A DNA stretch of 64,000 nt. It comes from Dokdonella fugitiva (GTDB lineage: Bacteria > Pseudomonadota > Gammaproteobacteria > Xanthomonadales > Rhodanobacteraceae). The notes under the pieces were generated by a model that searched no databases, was not told the origin of the DNA, and saw only the letters and a list, made by a program, of their open reading frames with translations. Location: contig NZ_JACGXL010000003.1 of assembly GCF_014138265.1 (NCBI RefSeq), positions 1 through 64,000 on the forward strand. The letters are read 5' to 3'. Both the position numbers and the translations under genes were made by a program. Position 1 is the stretch's first letter; the number at the start of each line of letters is the position of its first letter. Below are positions 5,183 through 51,217 of this stretch, piece by piece.

Positions 5183-5701
5183 TCAGGGCACGAAGCCGCG
5201 GATGTCGAAGCCGTCGCGGAATACCGTCGTGCTCGTCCCCGGCAGCGCGCCGTTCGCGATCCAGTCGTAGATCAACGCCTGCTGCTCGGGTAGCAGGCCG
5301 CCGCCGTAGTTGTCGAGCGGCATGCGTGCGCCGACGCCGGGCGTGTCGCAGTTGACCTTGCGGAACAGCAGGCTCTCCTCGGGCCGTCCCGGTACGACGT
5401 AGAGGATGCTGGCGTCCTCCCCGCTTGGCACGCCGACCAGATGGCCCCACGAGGCGCCCGCGCTCAGATCGAGCCCGCCGCTCGGCATCGGCGGCGGCGC
5501 GAAGTGGCAGTCGATGCAGCCGGCGCTGCCGCCGTTCGTCGCGTAGTCGTCGAACAGCCCCTGGATCGCCGCGCCGTAGGTGATCGCATAGTCCGGCGGG
5601 ATGTCGGCGATGCGCGTGCAGCCGAGCGGCGCACCCGCGTACGCGGACGCGCACGCCAGTGCGATGCCGGCCGCGACCGCGATGGCCGGCGTCGTCCGCA
5701 T
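5183..5701 (-). CDS. Secreted c-type cytochrome-like protein with a C-terminal F-x-x-G-F-D motif
   Basis: This 172-residue protein has a clear signal peptide ending near ASAYA. One haem c site, CIDCH, lies at residues 62-66, with a later candidate axial methionine in [11 protein letters not shown]. This is the pattern of a small periplasmic monohaem cytochrome. The C-terminus reads [15 protein letters not shown], close to the terminal motif seen on four other secreted proteins in the window. It lies 4 bp after the DUF1501 gene and is the last gene of a DUF1800-DUF1501-cytochrome operon. Haem attachment is inferred from the motif; the electron partner is unknown. Confidence 0.75.
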
Positions 5702-5705
5702 CGGC

Positions 5706-7184
5706 TCAGACGAAGCCGAGGTTGCCGGTGGCGAAGTTCGCGAGGTTCGGGAAGATCGCCGCGAGGTCGGTCGGCGAGGTCACGCCCAGCCACTGCGCGA
5801 GCGTCGCCGCGTACTGGTCGACGCCGATGCCGGGGATCATCTGGCCGCGCGAGAAGTTGTTCGGCGCGTCGAGGTGCTGGTCCGGGAATCCGCTGATCGG
5901 GCCCCCGCCATTCGTGTACAGCTTGCCGCCGTTGACCGCGCCGCCGAGCGCGAACTGCACGCCGCCCCAGGCATGGTCCGAACCGGAGCCGTTCGACTGC
6001 AGCGTGCGCGCGAACTCCGACGCGGTGAACAGCGTGACCTCGTTCTGCGCGTCGACGTCGCCCGGCGCGAGCGCGAGCCAGAACGACGAGATCGCGTCGT
6101 TGACGAGCTTGAGCAGGTCCCCGTGGTCGTTGTTGCCGGACATCAGGCCCGAGTGCAGGTCGAAGCCGCCGAGGCGCACGTAGTAGATCTGCCGCGCGGC
6201 ATAGTTCTGCGCCTTCGACAGCTTGATCATCTTCGCGACCATCTGCAGCTGCGAGGCGAGCGAATTGTTGGCCGGGAACGGCTGCACGAGCGTGGTCCCG
6301 TCGAGACCGGTCTTGAGCAGGTTGTAGAGGTCGCGGCTGCGCCCGAACACCTTGGTGTATTCGCCCGCGAAATCGTTCGCATAGGTATCGGCGAGCAGCG
6401 TGTTGAGCGCGTTGTCGCGCACGCTGGTGGCACTGACGCCGCTGCACGGCGTCGGATTGCACATGCCGTTCAACGACGACAGGCCGCTCGACGACATGCG
6501 GTACGGCACGGTCGACAGGCCGACTTCGAAGCGGTTCGCGCCGGAGATCGAGATGCAGGTCGACAGATCCTGGTTCGGGTTCGACGCATGCACGACGTCG
6601 CCGCAGCGGCCGCCCCAGCCGACCACGCGGTTGGTCACGCTGGTGCCCTGGTGCCAGAGGTTTTCCTGGTCTGAATGCGAGTACAGCTGAGGCGGGCGGT
6701 TCGCCGGCGTCGAGTAGTCGGCCTTCACGATCGGCTTGACCAGCGTGCCGACGTTGACCGCGAACGCGAGCTTGTTGGCGCGGTACAGCGCGGCGAGATC
6801 GTCCAGTTCCGGGTGGAGGAAGTACTGGTTCGTCGCGCTGCTCGAATCGTTGCCGTCGACGATCTTCTGCAACGCGACGTCGGTGCCGGCCGGGATGCCG
6901 AGGGCAAGGCCGTCGGGGTTCGACTGCGCGTTGTAGACGCCGCCGCGCGCGTCCGCGTAGACGTCGTGTCGCGCGGTGTCGAACGGCACGAGCAGGTTCC
7001 ACGAGTCGTTGCCGCCGGCGAGATAGACGCAGACGAGCGCCTTGTAGCCGGGCAGCGAACGCGTGTTGGCGAGCGCCGTGCCCATCATGCGCAGTTGCGG
7101 GAACATCGCGGCGGTGCCGCCGCTGCAGGCAGCGAGCGCGAGCGTGCGCAGGAAGTCGCGGCGCGAGTTGCGTGAATGGCTCAT
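5706..7184 (-). CDS. DUF1501 family Tat-exported protein
   Basis: The 492-residue protein starts with a twin-arginine signal (SRRDFLRT, residues 7-14, followed by a short hydrophobic stretch). The DUF1501 body has VCVYLAGGNDSWNLLVP near its start and ends with the YAATLAQWLGV region typical of this alkaline-phosphatase-superfamily-like family. The ATG at 7184 follows GAGGAGAC. It starts 10 bp after the upstream DUF1800 gene and is followed after 4 bp by the cytochrome gene. Family members are usually paired with DUF1800, and their biochemical role is not established. Confidence 0.85.
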   Translation of the reverse strand: MSHSRNSRRDFLRTLALAACSGGTAAMFPQLRMMGTALANTRSLPGYKALVCVYLAGGNDSWNLLVPFDTARHDVYADARGGVYNAQSNPDGLALGIPAGTDVALQKIVDGNDSSSATNQYFLHPELDDLAALYRANKLAFAVNVGTLVKPIVKADYSTPANRPPQLYSHSDQENLWHQGTSVTNRVVGWGGRCGDVVHASNPNQDLSTCISISGANRFEVGLSTVPYRMSSSGLSSLNGMCNPTPCSGVSATSVRDNALNTLLADTYANDFAGEYTKVFGRSRDLYNLLKTGLDGTTLVQPFPANNSLASQLQMVAKMIKLSKAQNYAARQIYYVRLGGFDLHSGLMSGNNDHGDLLKLVNDAISSFWLALAPGDVDAQNEVTLFTASEFARTLQSNGSGSDHAWGGVQFALGGAVNGGKLYTNGGGPISGFPDQHLDAPNNFSRGQMIPGIGVDQYAATLAQWLGVTSPTDLAAIFPNLANFATGNLGFV

Positions 7185-7194
7185 CGTCGTCTCC

Positions 7195-8943
7195 TCAGCG
7201 CTGCGTCGCGAATTCGGGGGACAGCATCGTCACGTAGATCGCCGACCACGCCTTCTCCGACGCGGACGCGCCGTTGAGGTTGGCCAGCATGCCGGTCAGC
7301 GTCGCCTTCATGTTCGCCGACATCGTGCCGTACAGCAGGCTCTTGTCGATCGTCGCGACCATCGCGGCCGGACTGGTCGCGTTCGCGGTCAGCGACGACA
7401 GGTCGATCAGCGGCCGGTCGGTCGGCGGATTGGACATGCCCACGTAGGCCTTCGCGCTGAAGTTGTAATAGGAGTTGCCGGTGGAGTACGCGCTCGCCTC
7501 GCTGAGGATCTGCAGCTCCGGCGAATAGCGGTCGTTGTCGGCGAACGGCCCGGGCTGCTGGTAGTCGGGTTCGTAGAAGTTGAACACCGTGGGCGATTCG
7601 AGCGGCCCCTGTCCGAACGAGCTGGTCTGGCCGTTGCCCGCGCTCATCTTCACTTCGCCGTACGCGTCGGGCGCCTGCGCCTGTGCGTTGAACGCACGCC
7701 ACACCGCGGTCAGGCGCAGGATCGGCTCGCGCAGCTTGCCGTAGTGGTCGCCGCTCGCGAGCGCGGGTGGATGGCGCGCCTCGTCGTCCATGAGGATCGC
7801 CTTGATCACGTCGCCGAGGTTCGCGCCCGGCGCGTCGAAAACCTGCGCGACGCGCTCGATGTACTGCGGGGACGGGTTGCTCGTGACGAAGCGCTGGATC
7901 AGCTGGCGCGAGACGAACGGCGGCACGTTCGGATGCGCGGCGAGGATGTCGAGTTCGTCGCCGACGTCCTGCGCGCAGGTCTGGTTCGGCGGGATCGTCA
8001 CGCCGCCGACCACCGTCTTCGGCGTCGCTGTGGTGCCGTCGTCGCCGGTGATGTCGTGGCGCATGTTGTTGCTGCCGCTGCCGCTCGCCGGAAAATGCTC
8101 GGTGCCGAAGCATTCCATCGGCGCGTACTGGGCGGCGAACGTCAAGCCGCCGCCGTAGAAATTGGGCGGGTTGAGCGGTGCATCGCTCCAGGTGAAACCG
8201 GTGAACACCTTCGCCGTGTGCGTGATCGTGGTCTGGTCGTAGGTCGGGATCTCGACGCCGTTGGAGAGGATCGGCGAGAAGTCCATGTCGCGCAGCACCA
8301 GGCCGATCGAGAACAGCTGCATGACTTCGCGCGCGTAATTCTCGTCGGGGCTCGTCGTCGCGCTCGGCTTCTGGTTGCGGAACGACGACAGGTACCGGCC
8401 CATCATCGGATGCCACGTCACGTCGCCGAGCAGCGTGCGATACGACGCGAACGCGTCCTTCGCGAGCATGTCGTAGTAGCCGGCCATCGGCACGATGTAG
8501 TTGCCGATCGCGCTGCTCTGGTCCGAGATCACGAAGATCTGGCTGAGCGCCCACGCCATGCGCTGGCGCAGCTGGTCGGGCGCGTAGGCCGCCTGCCAGT
8601 ACCAGCGCTGGATGCGCTGCGACTGGCTCACGCTCTGCGCCGCCGCGGTACGCGCGTTGACGACCTGTTCGACGGCCGGCGCGCCGAGCGTCGGCGCCCT
8701 GGCGAGTTGCTCCTCGATCCAGGCGTCGTAGCCGAGCGCGGTCAGGCGCGCGACGTCGGCCGTGGTCGGCCCGAACGTCGCCTGGGTCAGGAAGCGCGAC
8801 GCCTCGTTCGCGTCGGCGGGCGCGTCCGGCGCGGGATCGAAGCCGTAGGCGAACAGGCGGTCGTGCGTGGCGGCGTGTGCGCCCGTGCAGACCATCGAAG
8901 CGAATACGGCGAGCGCGCCGCATGCGTTGCTGAAGCGAGTCAT
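7195..8943 (-). CDS. DUF1800 family secreted protein
   Basis: This 582-residue protein has a signal peptide (ending near TGAHA) and then RLFAYGFD, the same aromatic-x-x-G-F-D motif that other secreted proteins here carry at their C-terminus. The DUF1800 domain follows: EASRFLTQATFGPT at its start, the long Trp-rich RMAWALSQIFV segment, and ENYAREVMQLFSIGL. The start at 8943 is set by the signal peptide. It is the first gene of the operon with DUF1501 and a monohaem cytochrome. The DUF1800/DUF1501 pair is widespread, but its function is not assigned. Confidence 0.85.
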   Translation of the reverse strand: MTRFSNACGALAVFASMVCTGAHAATHDRLFAYGFDPAPDAPADANEASRFLTQATFGPTTADVARLTALGYDAWIEEQLARAPTLGAPAVEQVVNARTAAAQSVSQSQRIQRWYWQAAYAPDQLRQRMAWALSQIFVISDQSSAIGNYIVPMAGYYDMLAKDAFASYRTLLGDVTWHPMMGRYLSSFRNQKPSATTSPDENYAREVMQLFSIGLVLRDMDFSPILSNGVEIPTYDQTTITHTAKVFTGFTWSDAPLNPPNFYGGGLTFAAQYAPMECFGTEHFPASGSGSNNMRHDITGDDGTTATPKTVVGGVTIPPNQTCAQDVGDELDILAAHPNVPPFVSRQLIQRFVTSNPSPQYIERVAQVFDAPGANLGDVIKAILMDDEARHPPALASGDHYGKLREPILRLTAVWRAFNAQAQAPDAYGEVKMSAGNGQTSSFGQGPLESPTVFNFYEPDYQQPGPFADNDRYSPELQILSEASAYSTGNSYYNFSAKAYVGMSNPPTDRPLIDLSSLTANATSPAAMVATIDKSLLYGTMSANMKATLTGMLANLNGASASEKAWSAIYVTMLSPEFATQR

Positions 8944-9118
8944 CGCGCATCCCCACGAGTGGCCGGTGGTCCGGTGACCGGAGCGGCGCACTTTAGCCGT
9001 TGCGATCGTCGGCGGTTGTGACGATCGCCCCACTCGGTGATGGCAGATCGACGTCCGGTGCGAACGCGCGGACGCGCGGTCGGTTGACACCCGACCGCGC
9101 GAAGGCCATCGCCGGCGA

Positions 9119-10507
9119 TCAGCGCCCGGGCAGGCCGCCCGGAGGAAAGCCGCCGCCGCCCATGCCCTTCATCGCCGAACCCATCTGGCGCATGAGGCCC
9201 TTGAGGCCGCCGCTGCCGAGCTTGGACATCATCTTTTCCATCTGCTGGTACTGCTTGAGCAGCTTGTTGACGTCGGCGGGCTGCATGCCGGAACCGCGCG
9301 CGATGCGCGCGCGGCGCGAACCGTTGAGCAGGTCGGGATGGCGCCGCTCCTTCTTGGTCATCGAGCCGATGATCGCCATCATGCGATGCACTTCGCGGTC
9401 GTTGACCTTCGACTTGACGTGGTCGGGCAGCGAGCCGACACCGGGCAGCTTGTCGATCAGCGACGCCATGCCGCCCATGTTGACCATCTGCTCGAGCTGG
9501 TCGCGCATGTCGTTGAGGTCGAAGCGCTTGCCCTTGATGACCTTCTCGGCGAGCTTGCGCTGCTTCTCCTGGTCGACGCCCTGCTCGACCTGCTCGACCA
9601 GCGACAGCACGTCGCCCATGCCGAGGATGCGCGTCGCGACGCGATCGGGATGGAACGGCTCGAGCGCGTCGACCTTTTCGCCCGCGCCGATGAACTTGAT
9701 CGGGCGCCCGGTCACGTAGCGCACCGACAGCGCCGCACCGCCGCGCGCGTCGCCGTCGGTCTTGGTCAGCACGACGCCGGTCAGCGGCAGCGCGTCGGCG
9801 AACGCCTTGGCGGTGTTGGCCGCGTCCTGGCCGGTCATCGAGTCGACCACGAACAGCGTTTCGATCGGATCGAGCGCCGCGTGCAGCGCCTTGATCTCGT
9901 TCATCATGTCCTGGTCGACGTGCAGGCGGCCCGCGGTGTCGACGATGAGCACGTCGGCGAACGCGCGCGCCGCCGCGTCGCGCGCGGCCTTCGCGATCGC
10001 GACCGGGTCCTGCTCGCCGCTGGAGGGATGGAACAACACCTCGACCTGGCCGGCGAGCGTGCGCAGTTGCTCGATCGCCGCGGGGCGGTAGACGTCGCAG
10101 CTGACCACCATGACCTTCTTCTTGCGTCGCTCCTTGAGGAAGCGCGCGAGCTTGGCGACCGTGGTCGTCTTGCCCGCACCCTGCAGGCCGGCCATGAGCA
10201 CGACCGCGGGTGGTGCCGCGGCGAGGTTGAGATCGCTGTTCGCGGTACCCATGACCGCGGTCAGCTCGTCGCGCACGACCTTGACCAGGGTCTGGCCCGG
10301 CGTGAGGCTGCGCAGCACGTCCTGGCCGAGCGCCTTGACCTGCACGCGCTGGATCAGCGCCTGCACCACCGGCAGCGCGACGTCGGCCTCGAGCAGCGCG
10401 ATGCGCACCTCGCGCAGCGCCTCGCGGATGTTCGACTCGGTCAGCCGCCCCTTGCCGCGCAGGCGCTGGACGGTGGCGGACAGGCGTTGGCTGAGCGACT
10501 CGAACAT
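9119..10507 (-). CDS. ffh: Signal recognition particle protein Ffh
   Basis: The 462-residue SRP54 GTPase targets inner-membrane proteins to the translocon together with 4.5S RNA and FtsY. The N domain is followed by the G domain, with the P-loop GLQGAGKT at residues 107-114, DTAGRLHVD and TKTDGDARGG. The Met-rich M domain ends in MKGMGGGGFPPGG. It is divergent from a CcsA-like gene, an arrangement also known from other gammaproteobacteria (ffh next to ypjD). A TATAAT box precedes the start. Confidence 0.97.
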   Translation of the reverse strand: MFESLSQRLSATVQRLRGKGRLTESNIREALREVRIALLEADVALPVVQALIQRVQVKALGQDVLRSLTPGQTLVKVVRDELTAVMGTANSDLNLAAAPPAVVLMAGLQGAGKTTTVAKLARFLKERRKKKVMVVSCDVYRPAAIEQLRTLAGQVEVLFHPSSGEQDPVAIAKAARDAAARAFADVLIVDTAGRLHVDQDMMNEIKALHAALDPIETLFVVDSMTGQDAANTAKAFADALPLTGVVLTKTDGDARGGAALSVRYVTGRPIKFIGAGEKVDALEPFHPDRVATRILGMGDVLSLVEQVEQGVDQEKQRKLAEKVIKGKRFDLNDMRDQLEQMVNMGGMASLIDKLPGVGSLPDHVKSKVNDREVHRMMAIIGSMTKKERRHPDLLNGSRRARIARGSGMQPADVNKLLKQYQQMEKMMSKLGSGGLKGLMRQMGSAMKGMGGGGFPPGGLPGR

Positions 10508-10536
10508 GGGCGGACCGGCAAGCGGAAAAGGCGGCG

Positions 10537-10542: not shown

Positions 10543-10567
10543 GCGCCCTCGCGCCGGCTGCATCCCG

Positions 10568-13569: not shown

Positions 13570-14661
13570 TCAGAACAGCACGGACTCGTCGAAGGCGTCG
13601 ATGAACACGGTGTCCTCGTACGCGCCGAAGTCCTGGTGGCCGTGCAGCGGATAGGCCGCGCCGAGGAGATCCGTGCCGCCGGTCAGCCAGTGGCTGCGAC
13701 CGAGCAGCGGCGAATCGGCGCCGAGGCGGTAGTCGCCGCCGCCGGCGTCGACGAAGCCGGGATCGACCGCGATGTTGCCCGCCTGTACCGCGCCGCTGTC
13801 GTTGAGGATGTGGCCGATGTCGTTGAAGTACAGCGTCGCGGTCGGGCAGGACATCCAGAAGCCGCCGTTGACGTTGTGCTGGACGATGTTGTTGGCGACG
13901 TCGCAGCTCGCGCCGTCGATGTAGACCGAGCGCTGCGAATCGTCGCTGCCGGGCACGCTGTTGTCCGCGACGGTGTTGTCGTAGAACGCCACGCCGTCGC
14001 CGCCGCCGACGAGTTCGACCGCGGATTCGCCTTGCTCGGCGACGTTGCCGACGATCAGGGTGTTGTGGACGACCGTGCGGTTGCCGGCGCCGTCCGAGGC
14101 CGCGTACAGGCCGCCGCCGGCCGAGGTCGTATGGTTGTCGCGGATGATCGTGTCGAACACGGTCGCCGCGCTGTCGTCGGTTCCTTCGATGTTGATGCTC
14201 AGGCCGCCACCGTCGGCGGACGTCTCGCCGTTCTCGATCGTGACGCCGCTGACCTGGATCGCGGCCTTCCGGCTGCGCAGGTCCATGACCTGGTACTGGC
14301 CGTTGCCGTCGAGCAGGGTCGCCAGCGGATTGCCGGAGCGCGCGCTGCAATCCGCGTTGTAGCCGCCTTCGATCGACAGCGTGCCGGTGGCCGCCGTGTT
14401 CGAGTAGTAGAACGCTCCCGGCGAAGGGTTGGTGACGAGGCGCGTCTGGTAGAGCCCCTGGACGATCTTGATGCGATTGTCCATGCCGTTGTACTGCCCT
14501 CCGGTCGAGGCGGAGGTCAGCGCGTTCTGCAATTGCTGGGCGGTCGACACGCAATGACCGATGACGGTACCCGCGCGCGCGTCGGCGATGAATGCCGTCG
14601 CGACGAACAGGATCGGCAGGAGCACGCCGCGACGGGCGGGTTCGGTGCTGCGATGGCGCAT
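13570..14661 (-). CDS. Secreted right-handed beta-helix protein with a terminal F-x-x-A-F-D motif
   Basis: This 363-residue exported protein has a signal peptide ending near ADARA, starting at the ATG at 14661. The body is Gly/Asn/Thr-rich with repeated NTxI-x-x-N and GGGLY turns, as in parallel beta-helix (polymorphic outer-membrane / pectate-lyase-like) proteins. It has the LGADSPLLGRS and FGAYE C-terminal region common in such proteins. It ends DTVFIDAFDESVLF, a variant of the motif shared by other secreted proteins in this window. No catalytic residues were recognised. It is the likely paralogue in style of the protein at 49754-51217. Confidence 0.7.
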   Translation of the reverse strand: MRHRSTEPARRGVLLPILFVATAFIADARAGTVIGHCVSTAQQLQNALTSASTGGQYNGMDNRIKIVQGLYQTRLVTNPSPGAFYYSNTAATGTLSIEGGYNADCSARSGNPLATLLDGNGQYQVMDLRSRKAAIQVSGVTIENGETSADGGGLSINIEGTDDSAATVFDTIIRDNHTTSAGGGLYAASDGAGNRTVVHNTLIVGNVAEQGESAVELVGGGDGVAFYDNTVADNSVPGSDDSQRSVYIDGASCDVANNIVQHNVNGGFWMSCPTATLYFNDIGHILNDSGAVQAGNIAVDPGFVDAGGGDYRLGADSPLLGRSHWLTGGTDLLGAAYPLHGHQDFGAYEDTVFIDAFDESVLF

Positions 14662-14785
14662 GGCGGGGAGCCTCGTGAGGATGGCATCGAGTGCCACACG
14701 CAAGGCGGCGCGCAATCCGGGCAGGCGCCGGACGGCGAATCGCGTCGTCGCGACAGGAACCCGCACGCAACGGCGACCCGCTGCG

Positions 14786-34332: not shown

Positions 34333-37300
34333 ATGATACCGATACACCGCCGCGGCACGACGCAGGCGCGCACGACCGGCTTCGTGCGCGCGTTGCTGGC
34401 GCTGTGCCTGACGACGCTCGCCACCTTCGCCTTCGCGATCCAGCCGGTGACGCCGGAACAGCGCGCCGGGCACCCGAAGCTGCAGCGTGCGTTCATCGCA
34501 CCTGAACTGGACGTGCAGCCCGAGCTCGAGGCCGCCGAATCGCTCGTCGCCGGCGCCGGCACGCGCGCCGCGGCCGCGTCCTTCGCGCAGCGCTACGGCG
34601 GCACGTGGGAAGCACGCTGGGACCGTCGCAACGATCGCCCGAACCTGATCCAGGGCAGCGGCGTTCCGCTCGTGCCGGGTCGCGGCAACTCGCTCACGCT
34701 GGCGCAGCTCGGCCTCGCCGCCAACGACCACGTCGATCTTGCCGTGGTCGAGACGCGACTGCAGGACTTCATCGCCGCGAACGCCGACCTGCTCGGGACC
34801 AAGGGCCTCGACTTCGCGCTCGACCCGAACAGCAGCATCGCCTACGGCAAGAATGATTCGCACTGGTTCGTCGAATTCGTGCAGCTCAAGGACGGCGTGC
34901 GCGTCGAAGGCGCCGGCCTGTTCTTCCGTGTCGCGGCAGGCAACATCGTGCAGTTCGGCGCCAATGCGGTCGCGCCGGTCGCGATCGACGTGCAGCCGGT
35001 GTCGACGCGCGAGAACGCGTTCGACCTCGCCCTGCGCGAACTCGATTTCCCGGCGGGCACGCGCGTCGCCGAGATCGTCGAAGCGGGCGAACTGCTCGTC
35101 GTGCCGGTCGCGCCGGCGGGTGAAGCGGCCAAGGCGAACTATGCCGGCGAGACCGGCCAGGGTTACCGCCACCGGCTCGCATGGCGCTTCGTGTTCCGCC
35201 TCGATGGCGACGTGACGACCTACCAGGTGCTGTTCGACGCGCACACCAACCGCGTCATCGAAGTGCGCGACCTCAACGACTGGGTCAACGCGACCGTCAC
35301 CGGCGGCATCTACCCGACCACGAACTCCGACACCGAAGTCGTGCGCCCGATGCCGTTCGCGAACGTCAGCAACGGCGGCGTCAAGGTGACCGACGTGCTC
35401 GGCATCTACGACTACAGCGGCGGCACGGCGACGATCACGCTGAACGGCAAGTTCTTCAACATGTCGGACAACTGCGGCGCGATCTCGCTGTCCAACTCGA
35501 CCGACGGCAACCTGAATTTCGGCACCAGCGCCGGCACCGACTGCGTCACGCCGGGCGTCGGCGGCGCGGGCAACACGCACGCGTCGCGCACGGGCTTCTA
35601 CCACCTGACCAACATCAACCGGAAGGCGATCACGTTCTTCCCGTCCAACTCGTGGCTGCAGGGCACGGTGACGGCGAACATGAACATCAACGACCTGTGC
35701 AACGCCGGCTGGAACGGCAGCACGCTGAACTTCTTCAAGTCCGGCGGCGGCTGCTCCAACACGGGCGAGATCGCCGCGGTGTTCCTGCACGAATGGGGCC
35801 ACGGCATGGACACCAACAGCGGCGGCGCGGCCAGCGAGAACGGCAGCGGCGAAGCGGTCGGCGACACGTTCGCGTTCCTCGAGACGAAGGACGCCTGCAT
35901 CGGCAAGAACTTCACCCCGGGCCAGGCGTGCGCGAACTGCGCGGCGAGCTGCACCGGCGTGCGCGACGTCAATGCGTTCAGCACGCACGGCGCGGCCACG
36001 GTCGCGCGACCGAACCTCGTCGCCGACAACGCCGGCATCAACTGCGACCGCTACACCTGCCCGTACCTGTCGCAGGGCGTCTTCCCGTACCAGGGCCCGA
36101 TGGGCTACGAGGGCCACTGCGAGAGCTACATCGCCAGCTCGGCCAACTGGGATCTCGCGCAGTCGCTGCTCACGCACTTCGGCACGAACCAGGGCTGGAG
36201 CGAAATGGACCGCATCTGGTACGGCAGCCTCACGCCGAGCAAGAGCGCCTATCGCGTCGTCAGCGGCGGCACCTGCAATCCCGCGGCGACCGTCGACGGC
36301 TGCGGCGCGAACAACTGGTACACGGTGTTCCTCGCCTCCGACGACGACGACGGCAACCTCGCCAACGGCACGCCGAACGGCTGCCGCATCTGGGACGCGT
36401 TCAACGCCCACGGCATCGCCTGCGGCACGCGCCCGGTGTGCAGCGCCGATGCGCCCGACTTCACGCTCGCGATCGCCGAGGCGAGCCAGAGCATCTGCGC
36501 GCCCGGCAACACGACCTACACGATCAACGTCGGCAGCCAGCTCGGCTTCACCAACGCGGTCACGCTGAGCGCGACCGGCCTTCCGGCCGGTGTCAGCGCG
36601 GCGTTCTCGGTCAATCCGGTCGTGCCGGGTGGCAGCTCGGTGATGACGATCACCGCGAACGGCTCGGCCGTCGCCGGCACGTCGACGATCACGGTCAACG
36701 GCACCGCTGCATCCAGCGCCGGCCACTCGGCGACGAGCCAGCTCGTGCTCACCACGGGCGCACCCGCGGCGCCGGTCCTGAGCGGTCCCGCCAATGGCGC
36801 GACCGGCGTCAGCACCGCACCGACGCTGAGCTGGGCCGCGAGCGCGAACGCCACCTCGTACACGCTCGAGATCGCCACCGACGCCGGCTTCACGAACATC
36901 GTGCAGACGACGCCGGGCATCACGGCGACGAGCTACGCCGTCAGCGGCCTGCTGCCGACGACGACGTACTACTGGCGCGTGAAGGCGCTCAACGCGTGCG
37001 GCTCGACGACCTCGACGGTGTTCAGCTTCACCACCGCGAACATGATCTGTCGCGCGCCGAATGTGGCGATCCCCGACAACAACACGACCGGCGTGACCGA
37101 CAACCTCGTCGTCAGCGACAGCTCGACTCTCACCAACCTCAAGCTGTCGATCAAGGCCACCCACACCTACGTCGGTGATCTCGCCTTCACGCTCACCAAG
37201 GGCAGCAGCGTGATCGTCATCAACCATCCGACCAACGGCAGCGGCGGTTGCAGCGGCGACAACATCGACGTCACGCTCGACGACGCGTCCTCGACGCTCG

Positions 37301-38283
37301 TGCAGGGCCAGTGCAACGCGACGCCGCCGGCGCTGTCGGGCAACGTCAAGCCGAACGCACCGCTCGGCACCGCGTTCAACGGCCAGTCGCTCGCCGGCAC
37401 CTGGAGCCTCAAGGTCGTCGACAACGCGGGCCAGGATACCGGCACGTTGACCGAGTGGTGCCTGATTCCGACCACCAGCGGCGGCCCGACGACGTACACC
37501 GTCGGCGGCACCGTCGGCGGCCTGACCGGCAGCGGCCTCGTGCTCTCGCTCAACGCGGGCGCGCAGACCCTGCCCGTCGCGGCGAACGGCGCGTTCACGT
37601 TCCCGACCGGCCTCGCCAACGGCGCGGCGTACGCGGTCACGATCGGCACGCAGCCGAGCGGCCAGACCTGCTCGGTCGCCAACGGCAGCGGCACGATCAG
37701 CGGCGCGAACGTCACCAACGTCGCGGTCACCTGCGCGGCGACGCCGACCTACACGATCGGCGGCACCGTCAGCGGCCTGTCCGGCGCGGGCCTCGTGCTC
37801 TCGCTCAATGCAGGTTCGCAGACCCTGCCGGTGTCCACCAACGGTGCGTTCACGTTCCCGACCGCGGTCGCCGACGGCACGGCCTACACGGTCACCGTCG
37901 GCACGCAGCCGGCCGGCCAGACCTGCACGGTCGCCAACGGCAGCGGCACGGTCGCGGGTGCGAACGTGACGAACGTGGCGGTGACGTGCGCGAACAACAC
38001 GTACTCGGTCGGCGGCACGGTGAGCGGCCTGGTCGGCAACAGCGTCACGCTGTCGTTGAACGGCACCGAGAGCCTGCCGGTCGCGAGCAACGGTTCGTTC
38101 ACCTTCTCGACGATGCTCGCCGGCGGAGCCGCCTACGCGGTCACCGTGCAGACGCAGCCGAGCGCGCCGTCCCTGGTGTGTTCGGTCGCGAACGGCTCCG
38201 GCACGATCGCCGCAGCCAACGTCGGCAACGTCGCCGTGACCTGCTCCGACGCGATCTTCGCGAACGGGTTCGACGCGCCGTGA
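34333..38283 (+). CDS. Large secreted metalloprotease with P-domain and three tandem repeats
   Basis: This protein has 1316 residues. A signal peptide ends near FAFA, followed by an FTP-like propeptide of about 300 residues. A gluzincin zinc site HEWGH is at 486-490 with E507 (in GEAVGD) as a third-ligand candidate, resembling M36/M4 families. Next come Ig/FN3-like modules (about 720-900), a proprotein-convertase P-domain (about 906-1045) and three repeats of about 84 residues (1055, 1139, 1223), each with GGTV-GL, LSLN and VANGSGT. The C-terminus is DAIFANGFDAP. The start follows the signal peptide. The family (M36 or relative) is inferred. Confidence 0.85.
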   Translation: MIPIHRRGTTQARTTGFVRALLALCLTTLATFAFAIQPVTPEQRAGHPKLQRAFIAPELDVQPELEAAESLVAGAGTRAAAASFAQRYGGTWEARWDRRNDRPNLIQGSGVPLVPGRGNSLTLAQLGLAANDHVDLAVVETRLQDFIAANADLLGTKGLDFALDPNSSIAYGKNDSHWFVEFVQLKDGVRVEGAGLFFRVAAGNIVQFGANAVAPVAIDVQPVSTRENAFDLALRELDFPAGTRVAEIVEAGELLVVPVAPAGEAAKANYAGETGQGYRHRLAWRFVFRLDGDVTTYQVLFDAHTNRVIEVRDLNDWVNATVTGGIYPTTNSDTEVVRPMPFANVSNGGVKVTDVLGIYDYSGGTATITLNGKFFNMSDNCGAISLSNSTDGNLNFGTSAGTDCVTPGVGGAGNTHASRTGFYHLTNINRKAITFFPSNSWLQGTVTANMNINDLCNAGWNGSTLNFFKSGGGCSNTGEIAAVFLHEWGHGMDTNSGGAASENGSGEAVGDTFAFLETKDACIGKNFTPGQACANCAASCTGVRDVNAFSTHGAATVARPNLVADNAGINCDRYTCPYLSQGVFPYQGPMGYEGHCESYIASSANWDLAQSLLTHFGTNQGWSEMDRIWYGSLTPSKSAYRVVSGGTCNPAATVDGCGANNWYTVFLASDDDDGNLANGTPNGCRIWDAFNAHGIACGTRPVCSADAPDFTLAIAEASQSICAPGNTTYTINVGSQLGFTNAVTLSATGLPAGVSAAFSVNPVVPGGSSVMTITANGSAVAGTSTITVNGTAASSAGHSATSQLVLTTGAPAAPVLSGPANGATGVSTAPTLSWAASANATSYTLEIATDAGFTNIVQTTPGITATSYAVSGLLPTTTYYWRVKALNACGSTTSTVFSFTTANMICRAPNVAIPDNNTTGVTDNLVVSDSSTLTNLKLSIKATHTYVGDLAFTLTKGSSVIVINHPTNGSGGCSGDNIDVTLDDASSTLVQGQCNATPPALSGNVKPNAPLGTAFNGQSLAGTWSLKVVDNAGQDTGTLTEWCLIPTTSGGPTTYTVGGTVGGLTGSGLVLSLNAGAQTLPVAANGAFTFPTGLANGAAYAVTIGTQPSGQTCSVANGSGTISGANVTNVAVTCAATPTYTIGGTVSGLSGAGLVLSLNAGSQTLPVSTNGAFTFPTAVADGTAYTVTVGTQPAGQTCTVANGSGTVAGANVTNVAVTCANNTYSVGGTVSGLVGNSVTLSLNGTESLPVASNGSFTFSTMLAGGAAYAVTVQTQPSAPSLVCSVANGSGTIAAANVGNVAVTCSDAIFANGFDAP
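37495..38240 (+). repeat. Three tandem coding repeats of about 250 bp
   Basis: Units begin near 37495, 37747 and 37999. The first two are very similar at protein level (both contain LVLSLNAG-QTLPV and TNVAVTC), while the third is more diverged. They form the stalk-like C-terminal region of the secreted metalloprotease. Confidence 0.75.
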
Positions 38284-39953: not shown

Positions 39954-39955
39954 CG

Positions 39956-45259: not shown

Positions 45260-46168
45260 TCATCCCGGCTTGACGAAGCGCACGAGCACGCGCTGGCCGA
45301 TGCGGAACGCATCGCCGTCGAGACGCAGCACGCATTCGACGTCGTGCGCGCCGGCACGTTCGACCGGGTCGTCGGTGAGGCGGCTCGGACCGAACACGTC
45401 GCCGACGCGCAGCACTTCGGCGGCGACCGCCGTGCCCTGGTCCGAATCGCGCACGACCTCGGCGCGCATGCCGGGCTTGATCAGGTCGACGTAGGCTTCG
45501 TTGAGTTCGGCGCGCACGATGCGCGGGCGATCGGGCAGCAACTGGAACAATTCGGTCGCCGCCTGCGCCGACACCGCGTCTCCCGCGTGCACGGCGCGGC
45601 GCACGATACGCCCCGCCGACGGCGCAGTGATCGTTCGGGCGTCGAGTTCGGCGCGTGCCTCCTCCAGGTGCGCGTGCGCGGCCTTCGCGGCCGCTTCCGC
45701 GACGGCGACTTCGGCCTTCAGCACGGCGAGCGCGGTGCCCGCGTCGTCGGCGGACTGGCCGCTCGCCGCACCTGCGCTCGCGGCCGCAGCGGCACGGTCG
45801 GCCGCCTGTGCCGCGGGTGCGAGCTTCGCCTTGAGCACGCCGAGCTGCGCACTCGCCTGGGCGACACCGGCGTCGGCGATGCCGACCGCGATGCGCGCCT
45901 GGCGCTGGTCGAGCCGTGCGAGCACGTCACCCTGCCTGACGACGTCGCCGTCCTCGACGCGTACGTCCTCGATGCGTCCGTCACGCGGCGCGACGACGCG
46001 AATGAGCCCGCCTTCGACGTCGACCTGGCCGCGCGCCATCGCAATCCAGGCGCCGTTCGCGGGTGCCGCCGACGCCTTGCGGTCGAACGCGTCATCCGAG
46101 CACGCGGCGAGCAGCAGCACCGGCGCCAACAGCAGCGGCATCCAGCCTGCACGCATCCTCATGATCAT
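45260..46168 (-). CDS. HlyD/MacA-type periplasmic adaptor lipoprotein
   Basis: This 302-residue protein has a lipoprotein signal with lipobox LLAAC. A biotinyl-lipoyl-like half (RVVAPRDGRIEDVRVEDGDVV) is followed by a long Ala/Glu-rich coiled hairpin (about 100-180). The second half (RTITAPSAGRIVRRAVHAGD) then leads to a beta-barrel. It links the ABC transporter in the inner membrane with the TolC-like channel. It is preceded by an unusually strong GGAGGTGAGGTGG ribosome site. A gap of 181 bp, without a gene, separates it from the ATPase gene. Confidence 0.9.
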   Translation of the reverse strand: MIMRMRAGWMPLLLAPVLLLAACSDDAFDRKASAAPANGAWIAMARGQVDVEGGLIRVVAPRDGRIEDVRVEDGDVVRQGDVLARLDQRQARIAVGIADAGVAQASAQLGVLKAKLAPAAQAADRAAAAASAGAASGQSADDAGTALAVLKAEVAVAEAAAKAAHAHLEEARAELDARTITAPSAGRIVRRAVHAGDAVSAQAATELFQLLPDRPRIVRAELNEAYVDLIKPGMRAEVVRDSDQGTAVAAEVLRVGDVFGPSRLTDDPVERAGAHDVECVLRLDGDAFRIGQRVLVRFVKPG

Positions 46169-46349
46169 TCCACCTCACCTCCGGCCGGCGCGGATGCGCC
46201 TGCCGAGCAAATACAAGCGTTCACGAAGCGAGCACCGCACGCTCGCGCCGCCGGCGGCACGAGCGCGCCCCTTGCGACGAGCGCATCCGCGACACCCGCG
46301 CAGGGCAGATCGTACAACGCCGACGCGAACCGGCCGACCGCGGCGGCGT

Positions 46350-47054
46350 TCATGCCGGCATCGGCGCACCGGTGCGCCGATCGGCGAGGATGCGACCGTC
46401 CTCCATCGCGAGCACGCGGTCGGCGTGGCCGACCAGTCGCGGGTCGTGGCTCACGCAGAGCACGGTCGCCCCATGCGTGCGCGCGATGCGATGCAGGGTG
46501 TCGATGACGATCTGGCCATTGGCCGCGTCGAGCGCACTGGTCGGTTCGTCGGCGAACAGCAGCTGCGGCTCCTTCGCGAGCGCGCGCGCGATCGCCACGC
46601 GCTGCTTCTCGCCGCCCGACAGCTCCGCCGGCTTGAGCTGCAGGCGGCTGCCGAGGCCGACTTCGGCGAGCGCATCGGCCGCGCGCCGGCGCGCGATCGC
46701 GTCGTCGAGGCCGAGATAGCCGAGCGGCAGCATCACCTGCTCGAGCGCGCTCAATGCCGGAAACAAGTTGAAGCCCTGGAACACGAAACCGGTGTGGTGC
46801 AGGCGGAAGCGTTCGAGTTCCGCCGGCCTGAGGCGCGCGAGGTCCTGGCCGAGCGCGAACGCGCGCCCGCCGTCCGGGCGCAACAGCCCGCTGAGGATCG
46901 CCAGCAAGGTGCTCTTGCCGCAACCGGACGGACCCGACACGAGCGTGAGTTCGCCCGCGGCGATCTCGATCGAGAGGTCGCGCAGCACGTCGGTGCGCAC
47001 GGCGCCCGTGGTGAACGATTTCGACAGAGCGTCGGCGACGAGGGCGGCGTTCAT
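46350..47054 (-). CDS. ABC transporter ATPase (MacB/LolD-type)
   Basis: This 234-residue nucleotide-binding subunit has Walker A SGPSGCGKST, the signature LSGGEKQRVAIARAL, Walker B LLFADEPTSALD and a switch His in VSHDPR. VFQGFNLFPALSALEQVMLP is the Q-loop region of the MacB/LolD/DevA group. The ATG at 47054 lies just after the permease stop. It powers the exporter encoded in the same operon. Confidence 0.93.
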   Translation of the reverse strand: MNAALVADALSKSFTTGAVRTDVLRDLSIEIAAGELTLVSGPSGCGKSTLLAILSGLLRPDGGRAFALGQDLARLRPAELERFRLHHTGFVFQGFNLFPALSALEQVMLPLGYLGLDDAIARRRAADALAEVGLGSRLQLKPAELSGGEKQRVAIARALAKEPQLLFADEPTSALDAANGQIVIDTLHRIARTHGATVLCVSHDPRLVGHADRVLAMEDGRILADRRTGAPMPA

Positions 47055-47055
47055 G

Positions 47056-48186
47056 TCAGCGCAGCAGCAGGGCCGGGTCGGCATGGCGCAGCGCGCGCAC
47101 CGCGGCGAGGCCGGACAGCAGCGCGATGCCCATCACGAGCGTGGCGCAGACGGCGATGGTGACGAGGTCGAGCTGCACCGGCACGTCGCGGCGGTGCGCG
47201 AGCAGGACGACGAGCGCGGTCGCGACACCGCCGACGACGAGGCCGAACGCGCCGACCCACGCCGCCTGCTTGAGCACGACGTGACGCAACTGCGCGAAAC
47301 CGACGCCGAGCGCGTGCAGCGTCGCGTACTCGCGGATCGAACCGGCGACCGCACCCATCAACGTCTGGCTCGTGATCAGCGCACCGACCACGAACACGAC
47401 GATCGCGAGCAGCACCACGCCGAGGCCCGCGCCCGTCTCGAACATCCAGTAGGTGACCGCACGCCGCGCGAAGGCGTCGCGCGTCCACACTTCGAACGTG
47501 CGCGCCTGCCCCTGCGGCTGCAGGCGCTTGCGTGCCGCCGCCGCGTCGGCGCCGTCGTGCAGCTTCACCACGTAGTAGGCGACGCGCCCGCCGCTGTCGC
47601 CGTTGTCGAGGCGGCGCGAGGTCGCGAGCGAAGTCACGATGTTGACGCCACCGAGCGCGCGCAGGCCGCTGCCGACGCCGACGATGCGCACGCGATGACC
47701 GTTGATGACGGCTTGCCCGCCCACGCTGAGGCCGAGCTTGGCGAGGTCGGCGCGATCGACGATCACGCCGTCGGGCTCGTCGAGCAGCGCGCGCTGCGCG
47801 GGCGTGAGCGCATCGGCGAACATCAGCGCGTCGGCGCGCGTGTCGATGCCGGACACGAACACCGACACGCCACCCTTGTCGGCGGGGCCGCGCCAGTCGC
47901 CGTCGATCCAGTTGAACGGCTCGACGCGCCCGACCGCGGGGTCCATCAGCGCAGCGATCTCCGCCTGCTGCGGGATCGGCCGGCCGAGTTCGATGCTCTG
48001 CGTGCCCGGATAGCCGAGCCAGAGTTCGCCACCGGATTTGCGGATGTACACCGCGGAACTGTTGAAGATGCCGAACACGAGCGCCGCCTGCACGAGCAGC
48101 AGCAGGCCGGAGAACGCGACCGCGAGCGCGGACGGCAGGAAGCGCCGCCATTCGTGCACGAGGGTCTTGCGCGCGAGCGGCACCAT
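47056..48186 (-). CDS. ABC transporter permease (MacB/FtsX/DevC-type)
   Basis: This 376-residue membrane subunit has an N-terminal helix (ALAVAFSGLLLLVQAALVFG), a large periplasmic domain (about 45-255) and three C-terminal helices. They include LLAIVVFVVGALITSQTLMG, IREYATLHALGVGFAQLRHVV and a last helix near 340-360. This is the FtsX/MacB layout with four helices. It overlaps the TolC-like gene by one base (TGATG) and is followed by the ATPase after 1 bp. Confidence 0.92.
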   Translation of the reverse strand: MVPLARKTLVHEWRRFLPSALAVAFSGLLLLVQAALVFGIFNSSAVYIRKSGGELWLGYPGTQSIELGRPIPQQAEIAALMDPAVGRVEPFNWIDGDWRGPADKGGVSVFVSGIDTRADALMFADALTPAQRALLDEPDGVIVDRADLAKLGLSVGGQAVINGHRVRIVGVGSGLRALGGVNIVTSLATSRRLDNGDSGGRVAYYVVKLHDGADAAAARKRLQPQGQARTFEVWTRDAFARRAVTYWMFETGAGLGVVLLAIVVFVVGALITSQTLMGAVAGSIREYATLHALGVGFAQLRHVVLKQAAWVGAFGLVVGGVATALVVLLAHRRDVPVQLDLVTIAVCATLVMGIALLSGLAAVRALRHADPALLLR

Positions 48187-49598
48187 CAGCCGGCACCGTC
48201 GTCGGCGGGCGGCAACGGCGCTCCGCCGAGCGCCTTGTACAGCGCGACGAACGCGAGGCTGCGCTCCTGCTCGGCCTGCAGCAGGTCCAGTCGCGCCTGC
48301 AGCACGGCCGCGTCGGACGCGGCGAGGTCGAGGCCGTCCGCGAGGCCGAGCTGCTGCAGGGTCGCGGTCGATCGGGCCTCGTCATCGAGCGCCACGACGC
48401 CGTCCTGCAGTGCGCGCGAGGCGCGCGTGCGCTCGTGCAGCGCGGCCATCGCGGTTTCGACTTCGGTGACGCCGTCGAGCACGGCCTGCCGATAGGCGAG
48501 CACGCTCGCCTGCAGCGAGTTCGCGCGCGCATCCTTCGCGGCGCGGCGCGCACCCCAGTCGAACAGCGGGATTTCGATCGCCGGACCGAACGTGACGATG
48601 CCGTCCGCGTCCGACAGGCGCGTGTGGCCGATCACGCGCGCGGCATAGGTCAACGCGCCGCCGAGGCCGACGTGCGGATACAGGTCGGACTCGGCGATGC
48701 CGAGTTCGCCCGCGGCCTTCTCGACCTCGTACTCCGCGCGGCGGATCTCCGGGCGCGTGCGCAGCAGGTCCGCCGGCAGCACGTCGGCCGTCGCAGCCGT
48801 CGCGCCGAGCACGAGCGGCGCACCGCTGCCGACGACGTCCTCGTCGTCGCGCGCGAGCAACGCGGCGAGCTGCCGGCGCGCGCGCACGATCGCCGCGCGC
48901 GGCTCCGCCAGCGCGGCCTGCGCGACCGCCTCTTCGGCGCGCGCGCGCGCGACCTCGCGCGCGGCGGCGAGGCGCAGGCTTTCGCGCGTCGCGAGCAATT
49001 CACGCTTGTGCCGTGCACGCGCGGCGACCTGCTCGAGCAACGCGGCGCGACGTTCGGCGCCGCGCAGCTCGACGTACGCGCGCACGACTTCGGCGACGAC
49101 GCTGACGCGCGCCGCGAGCCCTTCGCTCTCGGCGATGCCGAGCTCGCCCGCGCTCACGCGCGCACGGCTCTGCGCGCGACCGAACAGGCCGAATTCCCAT
49201 TTCGCGTCGAAGCCGGCCTGGAAATAGCTCGCGCTGCTGTCCGGCGTCGGTTCGGCGTAGGTGCGGAAACCGAACTGCGGCAGCGAGGCATCATTCGCGT
49301 GCGCATCGAGCATGCGCGCGGCCTCGATGCGCAGGCGCGCCTGCGCGATGCCGAGGTTGTCGGCGAGCGCCGCGTCGACGAGCCGGTCGAGCCCGGCGTC
49401 GCCGAATGCCTTCCACCAGCCGTGCAGGTCCGGCGCCGGCGCATCGTCGCGTTCCGCATGCTGCCACGCCGCCGGCGTGTCGCGCTGCAGGGTCGGCAAC
49501 GGCGCCACCGCGCATCCGCCGAGCGAGAGCACGGCAACGAGCCACGCACGGCGACGGAACGAGGTGCGCGGCGGGTTCGGCGTACGGGGATCTGGCAT
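48186..49598 (-). CDS. TolC-like outer-membrane efflux lipoprotein (RND/NodT type)
   Basis: This 470-residue protein has a lipoprotein signal with the cysteine in LSLGGCAVAP. Two outer-membrane-efflux repeats follow: GLDRLVDAALADNLGIAQARLRIEAAR and ADVLPADLLRTRPEIRRAEYEVEKA (quoted by ADNLGIAQARL and RTRPEIRRAEYEVE). Long helices and IPLFDWGARR complete the NodT/OprM pattern. It is the first gene of the efflux operon (channel, permease, ATPase, adaptor). Confidence 0.92.
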   Translation of the reverse strand: MPDPRTPNPPRTSFRRRAWLVAVLSLGGCAVAPLPTLQRDTPAAWQHAERDDAPAPDLHGWWKAFGDAGLDRLVDAALADNLGIAQARLRIEAARMLDAHANDASLPQFGFRTYAEPTPDSSASYFQAGFDAKWEFGLFGRAQSRARVSAGELGIAESEGLAARVSVVAEVVRAYVELRGAERRAALLEQVAARARHKRELLATRESLRLAAAREVARARAEEAVAQAALAEPRAAIVRARRQLAALLARDDEDVVGSGAPLVLGATAATADVLPADLLRTRPEIRRAEYEVEKAAGELGIAESDLYPHVGLGGALTYAARVIGHTRLSDADGIVTFGPAIEIPLFDWGARRAAKDARANSLQASVLAYRQAVLDGVTEVETAMAALHERTRASRALQDGVVALDDEARSTATLQQLGLADGLDLAASDAAVLQARLDLLQAEQERSLAFVALYKALGGAPLPPADDGAG

Positions 49599-49682
49599 GC
49601 GGAGCGGTCGACTTGCGGGCAGCGGCCGCCGTCGACGGCCGCCTCCAGTCTAACCGAACCGCGCTGCCGCACGGCGATGCGC

Positions 49683-49716
49683 GGCAGGCGCGGCGCCCGA
49701 TCGCGCCGCGCCTGCC
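49683..49716. other. Strong hairpin between the efflux operon and the beta-helix gene
   Basis: Perfect arms of 13 bp (49683-49695 and 49704-49716), GGCAGGCGCGGCG and its complement, lie upstream of the TolC-like gene and downstream of the beta-helix gene. No T-run follows. Confidence 0.45.
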
Positions 49717-49753
49717 GACGCCCCCGCGGGCGCAGGGTCGAACGAAACAGGGC

Positions 49754-51217
49754 TCAGTTGAAGCCGTTCGCGTAGATGACGTCGGAATTGATCTGCAGTG
49801 CACCGATCTCGGGCCAGTCGGGCGGCGACTGGCGTGGGAATCCGACGCCGCGCTGCTCCCACGACCAGCCGAGGACGTTGCTGCCCCCGAAGGTGTCCCA
49901 TTGCCCCGGCGTCGGCACGTGGGTGCGCGTCTGGCCGCCGTTGTCCTGCAGCGGATGCAGGCCGGGATCCTCGTGCGTGGTGTCGTTCGGGCACGGCGCG
50001 CCGCACAGCATCACGTTGTTGTGGCCGCCGTTGAAGCCGGACCCGGGCTTGCCGGTCAGGTCGACGGTCGGGTACTGCGCGGGCGCACCGGTGTTGACGT
50101 TGTTGGCGATGATCGTGCTGTCCATCTCGCCGGAGACGCTCAGGTGCACGCCGGCGCCGAGATAGTAGCCGGCGCCGACGTCCCATTCGTGCGACGTGTT
50201 GAACGCGATGGTGCTGTTGTAGAGGTTGAGCTTGCCGACCGAGAAGATCCCGCCGAACCGGTTCGCGACGTTGCCGGACACCGTGCTGTTGATCATCGTC
50301 AGCGTGTAGGTCGAGGCGCCCTTCGTCGCGATGCCGCCCATGCGTGTCGCCTGGTTGCCGGAGATCGTCGAGCCGAGGACGAGCCCGCCGTTCCAGACGA
50401 ACAGCCCGCCGCCGAACGACGGCGTCGCGCTCTCGCCGATCGCGACGTTGTTCGACACCGTGCTGTACATGCTGACGAGGCCGTCGCGCGCGTAGACGCC
50501 GCCGCCGCTCGCGTAGCCGTAGCCGGTCGCCTTCGCCATGCAGCCGCTGATCACGCTGTTCTGCAGCAGGACCTCTCCCTGCGCCCATACGGCACCGCCG
50601 AGCGCGCCGTGATTGACCACACTCAGCGCGTTGCAGTTGCGCATCACCACGCCGTCGAGGATGGCGCTGCCTTGCGCGTGCACGCAGCCGCCGAGCGCGT
50701 CGTCGGTCGAGCGGTACTTGAAGCCGTTTTCGAGCGACACGTCTTCGATCTTGAGCGTGCCGGTGCCGAGATCGACGAACACGCCGTCGTGGAGGTTGCC
50801 GTCGATCGCGAGGCGATGCGCACCGGGGCCTTTGATCGCGAGGTTGGTCTGGCCGAATAGGATCGCGCCGCTGGTGAGCGTGATGCGGCTGCAGGCGAGC
50901 TGGGTCAAGTCGATCGTGTCGTCGCTGCTCGCCGCGCCTATCGTGTCGCGCAGGCTGCCGGCGCCGGCGTCGTCGCAGTTGGTGACGACGAGCGTGGTCG
51001 CCGCCGGGGCGGGCACCGCTGGCGCGGTCGCGTCGAGCACGCGCTGCAGCAGTGCGGGCGAAAGGGGAAGCGTGCCGTCGGCGATGCGCGCGCGCAGCGC
51101 GTCGAAGCGCGACTCCGCGTGCGGCGCCGGCGCGGCCACGCACAGGCAGGCGGCGAGGCAAGCCGCGAGCGGATGCAGGCGCGATCGGCACGGAGCGGGA
51201 TGAAGGTTCCTGTTCAT
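49754..51217 (-). CDS. Secreted beta-helix (choice-of-anchor Q-like) protein ending in Y-A-N-G-F-N
   Basis: This 487-residue protein has a signal peptide ending near APHA. TLVVTNCDDAGAGSLRDTI opens the repetitive domain. Many short beta-helix turns (SGGGVYARDG, NSTVSGNVA, NSTIAFN) follow. DPGLHPLQDNGGQTRTHVP is the hallmark of the choice-of-anchor Q type end. The last residues are SDVIYANGFN, the motif shared with other secreted proteins here. No enzymatic residues were recognised; an adhesin-like or surface role is inferred. Confidence 0.75.
   Translation of the reverse strand: MNRNLHPAPCRSRLHPLAACLAACLCVAAPAPHAESRFDALRARIADGTLPLSPALLQRVLDATAPAVPAPAATTLVVTNCDDAGAGSLRDTIGAASSDDTIDLTQLACSRITLTSGAILFGQTNLAIKGPGAHRLAIDGNLHDGVFVDLGTGTLKIEDVSLENGFKYRSTDDALGGCVHAQGSAILDGVVMRNCNALSVVNHGALGGAVWAQGEVLLQNSVISGCMAKATGYGYASGGGVYARDGLVSMYSTVSNNVAIGESATPSFGGGLFVWNGGLVLGSTISGNQATRMGGIATKGASTYTLTMINSTVSGNVANRFGGIFSVGKLNLYNSTIAFNTSHEWDVGAGYYLGAGVHLSVSGEMDSTIIANNVNTGAPAQYPTVDLTGKPGSGFNGGHNNVMLCGAPCPNDTTHEDPGLHPLQDNGGQTRTHVPTPGQWDTFGGSNVLGWSWEQRGVGFPRQSPPDWPEIGALQINSDVIYANGFN

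Follow-up and report, generated by a model that had tools for sequence, protein, structure and literature searches.

The window analyzed here is a stretch of 64,000 nucleotides (positions 1-64000 of contig C3 in the 4.77 Mb genome G000), and five of the proteins that it encodes carry a short peptide, termed the tag in the following. The original prediction had placed this motif on five exported proteins, and translation of the window frames confirmed all five:

5204..5230, minus strand: tag TTVFRDGFD, 6 residues ahead of the C-terminus of an exported cytochrome-like protein (5183-5701); from translation.
8836..8862, minus strand: tag DRLFAYGFD, 3 residues past the predicted signal peptide of a DUF1800 protein (7195-8943); from translation and orthologue alignment A1.
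13588..13614, minus strand: degenerate tag DTVFIDAFD, 5 residues (ESVLF) ahead of the C-terminus of a beta-helix-like exported protein (13570-14766); from translation and homologues.
38248..38274, plus strand: tag DAIFANGFD, 2 residues (AP) ahead of the C-terminus of an exported protein of 1316 residues (34333-38283); from translation and the strict pattern.
49757..49783, minus strand: tag DVIYANGFN, the final nine residues of a beta-helix protein (49754-51217); from translation and a beta-helix model.

Only DAIFANGFD fits the strict nine-residue pattern D-x-[LIVMF]-F-x-[D/N/S/G]-G-F-[D/E], while the other four tags deviate from it at one position or more. The proteins themselves have little in common. 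The cytochrome-like protein has a weak match to PSCyt1 (17.7 bits, cut-off 22), DUF1800 scores 284 bits in protein 7195-8943, the frame of which has its earliest start codon at 9090, and protein 34333-38283 matches fn3 and P-proprotein. In protein 49754 a weak match to choice-of-anchor Q (NCBIfam NF041518; 22.5 bits, cut-off 25) adjoins the tag. The AlphaFold model of this protein is a beta-helix in which residues 404-487 score below 50 on only 6 sequences, so that it is uninformative on the tag. Scanning the five window proteins with NCBIfam and Pfam, and one of them with PADLOC, returned no model of the tag, although the HMMER filters could miss one so short. The DUF1501-like, twin-arginine-type protein encoded beside the DUF1800 gene (5706-7184) carries no tag; a protein of genome G428 that resembles it by eye (locus L110) ends in DAIFASGFD. 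The protein encoded at 57845-58639 ends in AEQAIFRDHGFDAPPR, a near miss with one residue too many that is probably due to chance.

Searched as DNA, the strict pattern gave 144 matches in G000 and its reversal none, and the shorter F-x-x-G-F-[DE] gave 250 matches as compared to 13 for the reversed form. The reversed pattern is a crude control, and a shuffle test was added on an 864-kb sample consisting of two 400-kb stretches and the window, with 757 genes from a home-made gene caller. In-frame matches to F..GF[DE] numbered 32 in this sample, whereas 200 per-protein shuffles gave 2.96 on average and never more than 8; the remaining 11 orders of its residues gave 0-9 matches each. Another 6 matches fell in other frames, and no intergenic ones were seen. 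The codons within the tag match genome usage (Gly is GGC in 16 of 20 cases, against 78% genome-wide), and because codon choice follows the genome the tag is a peptide and not a DNA repeat. We therefore rejected a reading as a DNA repeat or DNA-uptake sequence, the matches being in frame, absent between genes and ordinary in codon usage. The strict DNA pattern misses worn tags such as DVIFADDFET, IYANGFD, and IFADGYD, and counts based on it are low estimates. Among 29 C-terminal tags the first position was D in 19, followed after one residue by I, V, or L in 28 and by F in 21; the later positions were D or N, G, and F, in 24 cases each, and D or E in 28. We regard it as next to certain that the tag is real. 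No published description of it was found in a literature search limited to open-licence papers and, for the most part, to the matches listed.

A tag was called C-terminal when it lay no more than 15 residues from the end of the protein, a broad definition that admits a few chance matches, e.g., ILDHAFD. Of the 29 C-terminal tags in the sample, 8 were the last residues of the protein and 26 were followed by six residues or fewer (range 0-14). These tails bear out that the tag lacks the hydrophobic helix and basic tail of the usual sorting signals, as first proposed. Tags just past the signal peptide were found at C1:131931, C1:381042, C2:62900, C2:159711, and in window protein 7195, and loci L089 and L108 also have the tag directly after the signal peptide. 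Tags further inside proteins were found at C1:306551, C1:309614, and C2:64421. Altogether, the tag is mostly found at the end of the protein, sometimes behind the signal peptide, and rarely between domains. Since it can stand at either end, or form the last residues, there is often nothing to cleave off. In Marinicella litoralis (G618) two strict tags on the same strand (C1:871659 and C1:871695) are 36 bases apart, a multiple of three, and perhaps form a tandem tag.

To call signal peptides we used a home-made rule together with inspection by eye, and not SignalP. A C-terminal tag was found in 23 of 265 signal-peptide-like proteins of the 864-kb sample, compared to 3 of 491 others (p 1.5e-8). 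The rule thus assigned a signal peptide to 23 of 26 C-terminally tagged proteins, and two more were recognized by eye: protein 49754 and the protein at C2:116998 have a signal peptide missed by the rule or by the gene start, while the third exception is chance-like. The tag is therefore rare outside signal-peptide proteins, which answers the objection that it might be equally frequent in cytoplasmic ones, and its recurrence on otherwise unrelated exported proteins holds beyond the window. We consider it very probable that the tag is a functional recognition element of exported proteins.

The tag was found to be confined to the order Lysobacterales among the sampled genomes, and there it is either present in tens of copies or nearly absent. 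Outside its own order, 364 genomes of a 369-genome draw from the class had 0-2 strict matches, and 45 had any. Within the order, 107 of 250 genomes had a strict match and 84 had at least three (tag-rich, as opposed to tag-poor, in the following), with a maximum of 144. Among named genomes, for which 24 of 25 loci were searched, the counts were 106 for Dokdonella fugitiva, 52 for Marinicella marina, 47 for M. pacifica, 34 for Tahibacter harae, 31 for M. litoralis, 27 for M. meishanensis, and 11 for Chiayiivirga flava. A scan of the named collection gave at least 117 tag stretches, of which 80 were listed; among the matches listed were Lysobacterales, Rhodanobacteraceae, Marinicella, Dokdonella, Tahibacter, Chiayiivirga, and unclassified proteobacterial bins, together with a few bins labelled Alcanivoracaceae, Rudaea, or Xanthomonas. 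For low-copy genomes the tag-bearing frames were read in 23 loci from 18 genomes, these 3-kb loci being too short for a neighbour search. The complete genome G384 (family f189) differed from the relatives examined in that GspD, DUF1800, and the strict tag all gave no match.

In the DUF1800 family the tag is also conserved between close orthologues. We searched 26 genomes for DUF1800 and found matches in 21; 30 loci were read and 20 further stretches fetched. With one protein from our own sample this gave 51 loci for comparison, of which 49 match the window protein and 20 match it closely (E <1e-60). In all 17 close orthologues from tag-rich genomes, some form of the tag was recognized by eye in the stretch that joins the signal peptide to the domain. 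In eight of them G-F-[D/E] was in register (IFRNGFE, IFASGFE, FFKSGFE), two had G-Y-E or G-M-E, and seven were more worn (e.g., IFATGHD and LIMSGDFD). The only tag-poor genome with DUF1800 proteins close enough for comparison was G417, and its three secreted orthologues have different spacers and no tag. The 29 more distant DUF1800 proteins, drawn from tag-rich and tag-poor genomes, mostly had no tag. In the AlphaFold model of the DUF1800 protein (alignment A1) the domain is confident, and the tag residues 28-36 fall in blocks of mean pLDDT 46 and 61; Foldseek of this model gave six PDB rows, none at E <0.001. Lack of conservation among orthologues, named beforehand as a finding that would speak against the motif, was thus not observed for close DUF1800 orthologues.

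For the other window proteins fewer homologues were available. All three homologues of protein 13570 end in the tag or a worn form of it, namely DVIFADDFET, DVLFRNGLEQAT, and DTLFRNGFE; the first is from the same genome (C1:296668-297705) and was missed by the strict pattern. The tag ends four of six homologues of protein 34333, all of which share just part of its sequence, and four of five homologues of protein 49754. No homologues of the cytochrome (5183-5701) were found in the same comparison. The L-numbered loci that supplied some of these homologues had been fetched for the presence of a tag. The four homologues from the same genome had not: those at C2:321869 and C2:292241 end in or near a good tag, that at C1:296668 has the worn tag, and that at C1:309614 has an internal one.

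Our original question was if tag-rich genomes without a type II secretion system (T2SS) exist; the link described below was unplanned. T2SSK (PF03934, 63 positions) was dropped as a marker, as it matched 7 of 14 control genomes including Bacillus subtilis. Its replacement, the GspD model TIGR02517, was above cut-off in 74 of 76 genomes and exposed two classes of secretin, tag-rich genomes mostly having two GspD proteins. A tree of 79 secretins split into two well-separated clades, which we call class A (27 rows) and class B (52 rows). The latter is an Xps-like system that most genomes of the order have, tag-rich and tag-poor alike, and the link is therefore not to T2SS in general. The class-B locus of G000 contains GspG, GspH, GspK, and a PilN-type (GspL-like) protein followed by gspD. 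G417, the genome with untagged DUF1800 orthologues, clusters with tag-rich genera in the secretin tree and lacks both class A and strict tags.

We ran a profile of 16 class-A secretins (A2) over the same 250 genomes in which tags had been counted. Class A scored mostly 640-1030 bits, with lower scores for fragments, an intermediate group in 17 genomes scored 438-631 bits, and class B was below 200 bits among the rows listed. In eight genomes the class-A assignment rests on short contig-end fragments, judged by bits per aligned position; G416 and G556 are partial, and G520 and G540 divergent. A class-A GspD was found in 76 of 84 tag-rich genomes, while 130 of 166 tag-poor genomes lacked it and 36 had it (Fisher 8.5e-27, ignoring kinship). 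In family f1, to which G000 belongs, class A was present in 6/6 tag-rich and 0/46 tag-poor genomes, and in family f2 in 2/2 and 0/51. In the class-A system of genome G375 GspD (504 bits), GspE (653 bits), and GspF (449 bits) were all above the NCBIfam cut-offs. For GspC (NCBIfam cut-off 101.6) G375 scored under it with 84 bits and G370 over it with 112, and the T2SSC and PDZ matches of G375 were above the Pfam cut-offs. The gene order at this locus (L325, 4169-12533) is gspC, alpha/beta hydrolase, gspD, gspE, gspF, ABC ATPase, and FtsX-type permease. No pseudopilin was present among the seven genes scanned there, and pseudopilins and GspL/GspM were sought only within the fetched gspD neighbourhoods.

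A search for a secretion or transpeptidase gene that accompanies the tag had been suggested. Of the two kinds of partner compared across the order, T2SS and exosortase, the tag is followed by the former only. Exosortase (PF09721) was found in 90 of the 250 genomes of the order, mostly matched over the second half of the model only, and in 4 of 52 in family f1. It was present in 42/84 tag-rich and 48/166 tag-poor genomes (p 0.0013, kinship disregarded), and on the tree an average of 1.7 pairs were with and 1.7 against an association with the tag.

Class-A systems also appear to differ from class B in their GspC. A GspC homologue with a PDZ-type C-terminus was found beside gspD in 27 of 27 class-A-clade loci, counting G594, G613, and G425, which by score belong to the intermediate group. 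Beside class-B gspD none was found in 52 loci at a first pass, and two weak matches at a second. Pfam confirmed the PDZ domain in the three proteins scanned, from G000 (T2SSC 79.7 bits; PDZ_2 27.4 bits, cut-off 27), G370, and G375. According to a 2025 paper on Vibrio cholerae, the OutC PDZ domain is bound by a disordered loop in the Fn3 domain of PelI, and VesB secretion requires the EpsC PDZ domain; the same paper argues from the absence of a linear universal T2SS signal (PMC12369372). Elsewhere, XpsC is described as carrying a 2P domain with a single helix where PDZ would be (PMC11981180), and Pel3 as needing several flexible loops (PMC7949064). A flexible tag that would be read by GspC is thus consistent with known biology.

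On these grounds we propose that D-x-[I/V/L]-F-x-[D/N]-G-F-[D/E] may be a short, linear, position-independent export tag. In a folded protein exported by Sec, it would remain flexible close to one end and be recognized in the periplasm by a component of the class-A T2SS, which would then carry the folded protein through the outer membrane. GspC would be the most likely reader, via the PDZ domain found in class A and not found beside class B. As a guess, a hairpin whose turn is [D/N]-G would be well suited to binding by beta-strand addition. The tag is probably connected with class-A type II secretion, and that it serves as a position-independent export tag used with class A, GspC being only a candidate receptor, is a proposition on which the evidence is evenly balanced. 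It is possible, at lower confidence, that the tag is read by the PDZ domain of GspC. The most far-reaching form of the proposal, a common linear T2SS signal of nine residues that suffices at either end of unrelated folded proteins, is read by the GspC PDZ domain and is used in much of the order, is put forward tentatively, with more doubt than confidence.

Several observations weigh against the proposed link to class A. Closely related genomes are not independent, and few independent contrasts are therefore left: on a class-B tree of 50 genomes there were five for the tag, with class A changing with the tag in three, against it in none and neutral in two (p 0.25, sign test). Counted from class A there were four, of which three or four agree and none or one disagrees (p 0.125-0.625). 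Three tag-rich genomes without class A are 96-98% complete (G427 97%, G461 98%, G487 96%), and five more are 77-90% complete (G412, G486, G542, G546, and G423). Family f188 has genuine-looking C-terminal tags in low number without class A (G511, G580, and G535; L113, L114, and L115), and the association is weak in this family (3/6 vs. 4/33, p 0.06). In f190 there is no association (class A in 11/12 tag-rich and 28/31 tag-poor genomes), because its genus g297 has class A, with a PDZ-type GspC, yet only 0-2 strict tags. A genuine-looking C-terminal tag was seen in five of the seven match-bearing g297 genomes read, and the tag is therefore not wholly gone from this genus. In G594 a related system is accompanied by a PDZ-type GspC, but the tag is missing. 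Among the fetched stretches, the tag pattern was seen in just 2 of the 27 for class-A loci and in none of the 52 for class-B loci. Binding to C-termini is usual for PDZ domains, which leaves the N-terminal tags unexplained. Finally, another gene lost together with the tag could be the partner, the comparison across the order covering exosortase and type II secretion.

Of the other explanations, retention at the cell surface fares best, and we rate it as less probable than the proposed export function though deserving attention. Here the proteins would be exported by some route and the tag would dock non-covalently on a receptor in the outer membrane or matrix. Such docking would work from either end. 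Several tagged proteins look surface-type (beta-helix, fn3), and the choice-of-anchor Q match that adjoins one tag, weak as it is, belongs to a family whose members, by name, bear varied anchors. No receptor was found, and the only associated gene set is a secretion machine. Among the neighbours of the 117 tag loci, the untagged families that recurred most were a kinase (10 loci), a sigma factor (7 loci), and a protein that by eye resembles aldehyde dehydrogenase (6 loci), none of them an obvious receptor. One kinase and one sigma factor were identified, as Ser/Thr protein kinase PF00069 and ECF sigma factor PF07638 (loci including L149:3-1271 and L168:4627-5196); their recurrence near tagged genes may reflect control of exported proteins. 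Retention and secretion are compatible: class A may secrete tagged proteins, which would dock afterwards.

A role in folding or quality control, with a periplasmic chaperone or protease of the order recognizing the peptide, appears improbable. Spaced aromatic residues at a flexible end are plausible chaperone ligands, and a tag at both ends would fit; against this, very different folds carry the tag and untagged orthologues exist in G417. Self-association, in which tags would bind one another without any receptor and so form a biofilm matrix or surface layer, is more improbable still. The two tags 36 bases apart in M. litoralis and the charged ends around a hydrophobic core fit this idea, while the near-absence of the tag from whole genera and the untagged orthologues (one case examined) are better explained by loss of a partner.

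Least credible is a transpeptidase signal, at which a sortase- or exosortase-like enzyme would cut within the tag and join the protein to the envelope: the number per genome, the mostly C-terminal place and the clade-wide presence or absence resemble PEP-CTERM, and exosortase is more frequent in tag-rich genomes when kinship is disregarded, but N-terminal and internal tags exist, often nothing follows the tag, and PF09721 had no match in tag-rich G000, G474, G367, and G514 (sortase and rhombosortase were not searched for). Against a TRANSPEPTIDASE reading stand the absence of a helix or tail, tags that form the last residues of the protein, and N-terminal tags. Of the sorting, secretion, or surface-attachment roles first suggested for the motif, a tag of exported proteins that co-occurs with class A thus remains, sorting by transpeptidase is not supported, and surface attachment is kept as the lesser possibility weighed above.

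The tag differs in its anatomy from known sorting tags. PEP-CTERM/exosortase and GlyGly-CTERM/rhombosortase resemble it in that one short motif occurs on dozens of unrelated exported proteins, with many or nearly none by lineage. Their signals are C-terminal with a membrane helix and basic tail, whereas the present tag has neither and is found at both ends. The Gly/Ser-rich motif, helix, and basic tail of GlyGly-CTERM do not occur in its tails, and neither its make-up nor its tails agree with the motif, helix, and tail of sortase (LPXTG) signals. Cleaved sorting signals are C-terminal only, in contrast to the N-terminal tags on DUF1800 orthologues, L089, and L108 and to the internal ones. It is this anatomy, which lacks the features of known sorting tags against which it was tested, and not the link to secretion, on which the novelty of the tag rests.

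Other systems are alike in part. Type IX secretion also uses a shared C-terminal element on many secreted proteins; its C-terminal domains are folded and tens of residues long, while the tag has nine residues. Encapsulation peptides of microcompartments and encapsulins are short, lie at the N- or C-terminus or in linkers and bring cargo to a receptor; their cargo is cytoplasmic, whereas the carriers of the tag are nearly all exported. The closest parallel to the proposed reading by GspC is recognition by the PDZ domain in OutC-PelI and EpsC-VesB, where a flexible substrate element, a PDZ-bearing GspC and folded substrates of several families are likewise involved. Known T2SS signals are structural and substrate-specific, while the tag would be a common linear one. 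The intermediate secretins (438-631 bits) were found in 17 genomes, many of them of genus g4, and those of g4 are presumably Xcs, the second type II system of Xanthomonas; none of the 17 genomes has a strict tag.

A tag with 144 strict matches in a single genome would allow direct tests of how T2SS select their substrates. Even if the tag anchors proteins instead, it would aid the prediction of surface and secreted proteins of the order from sequence alone.

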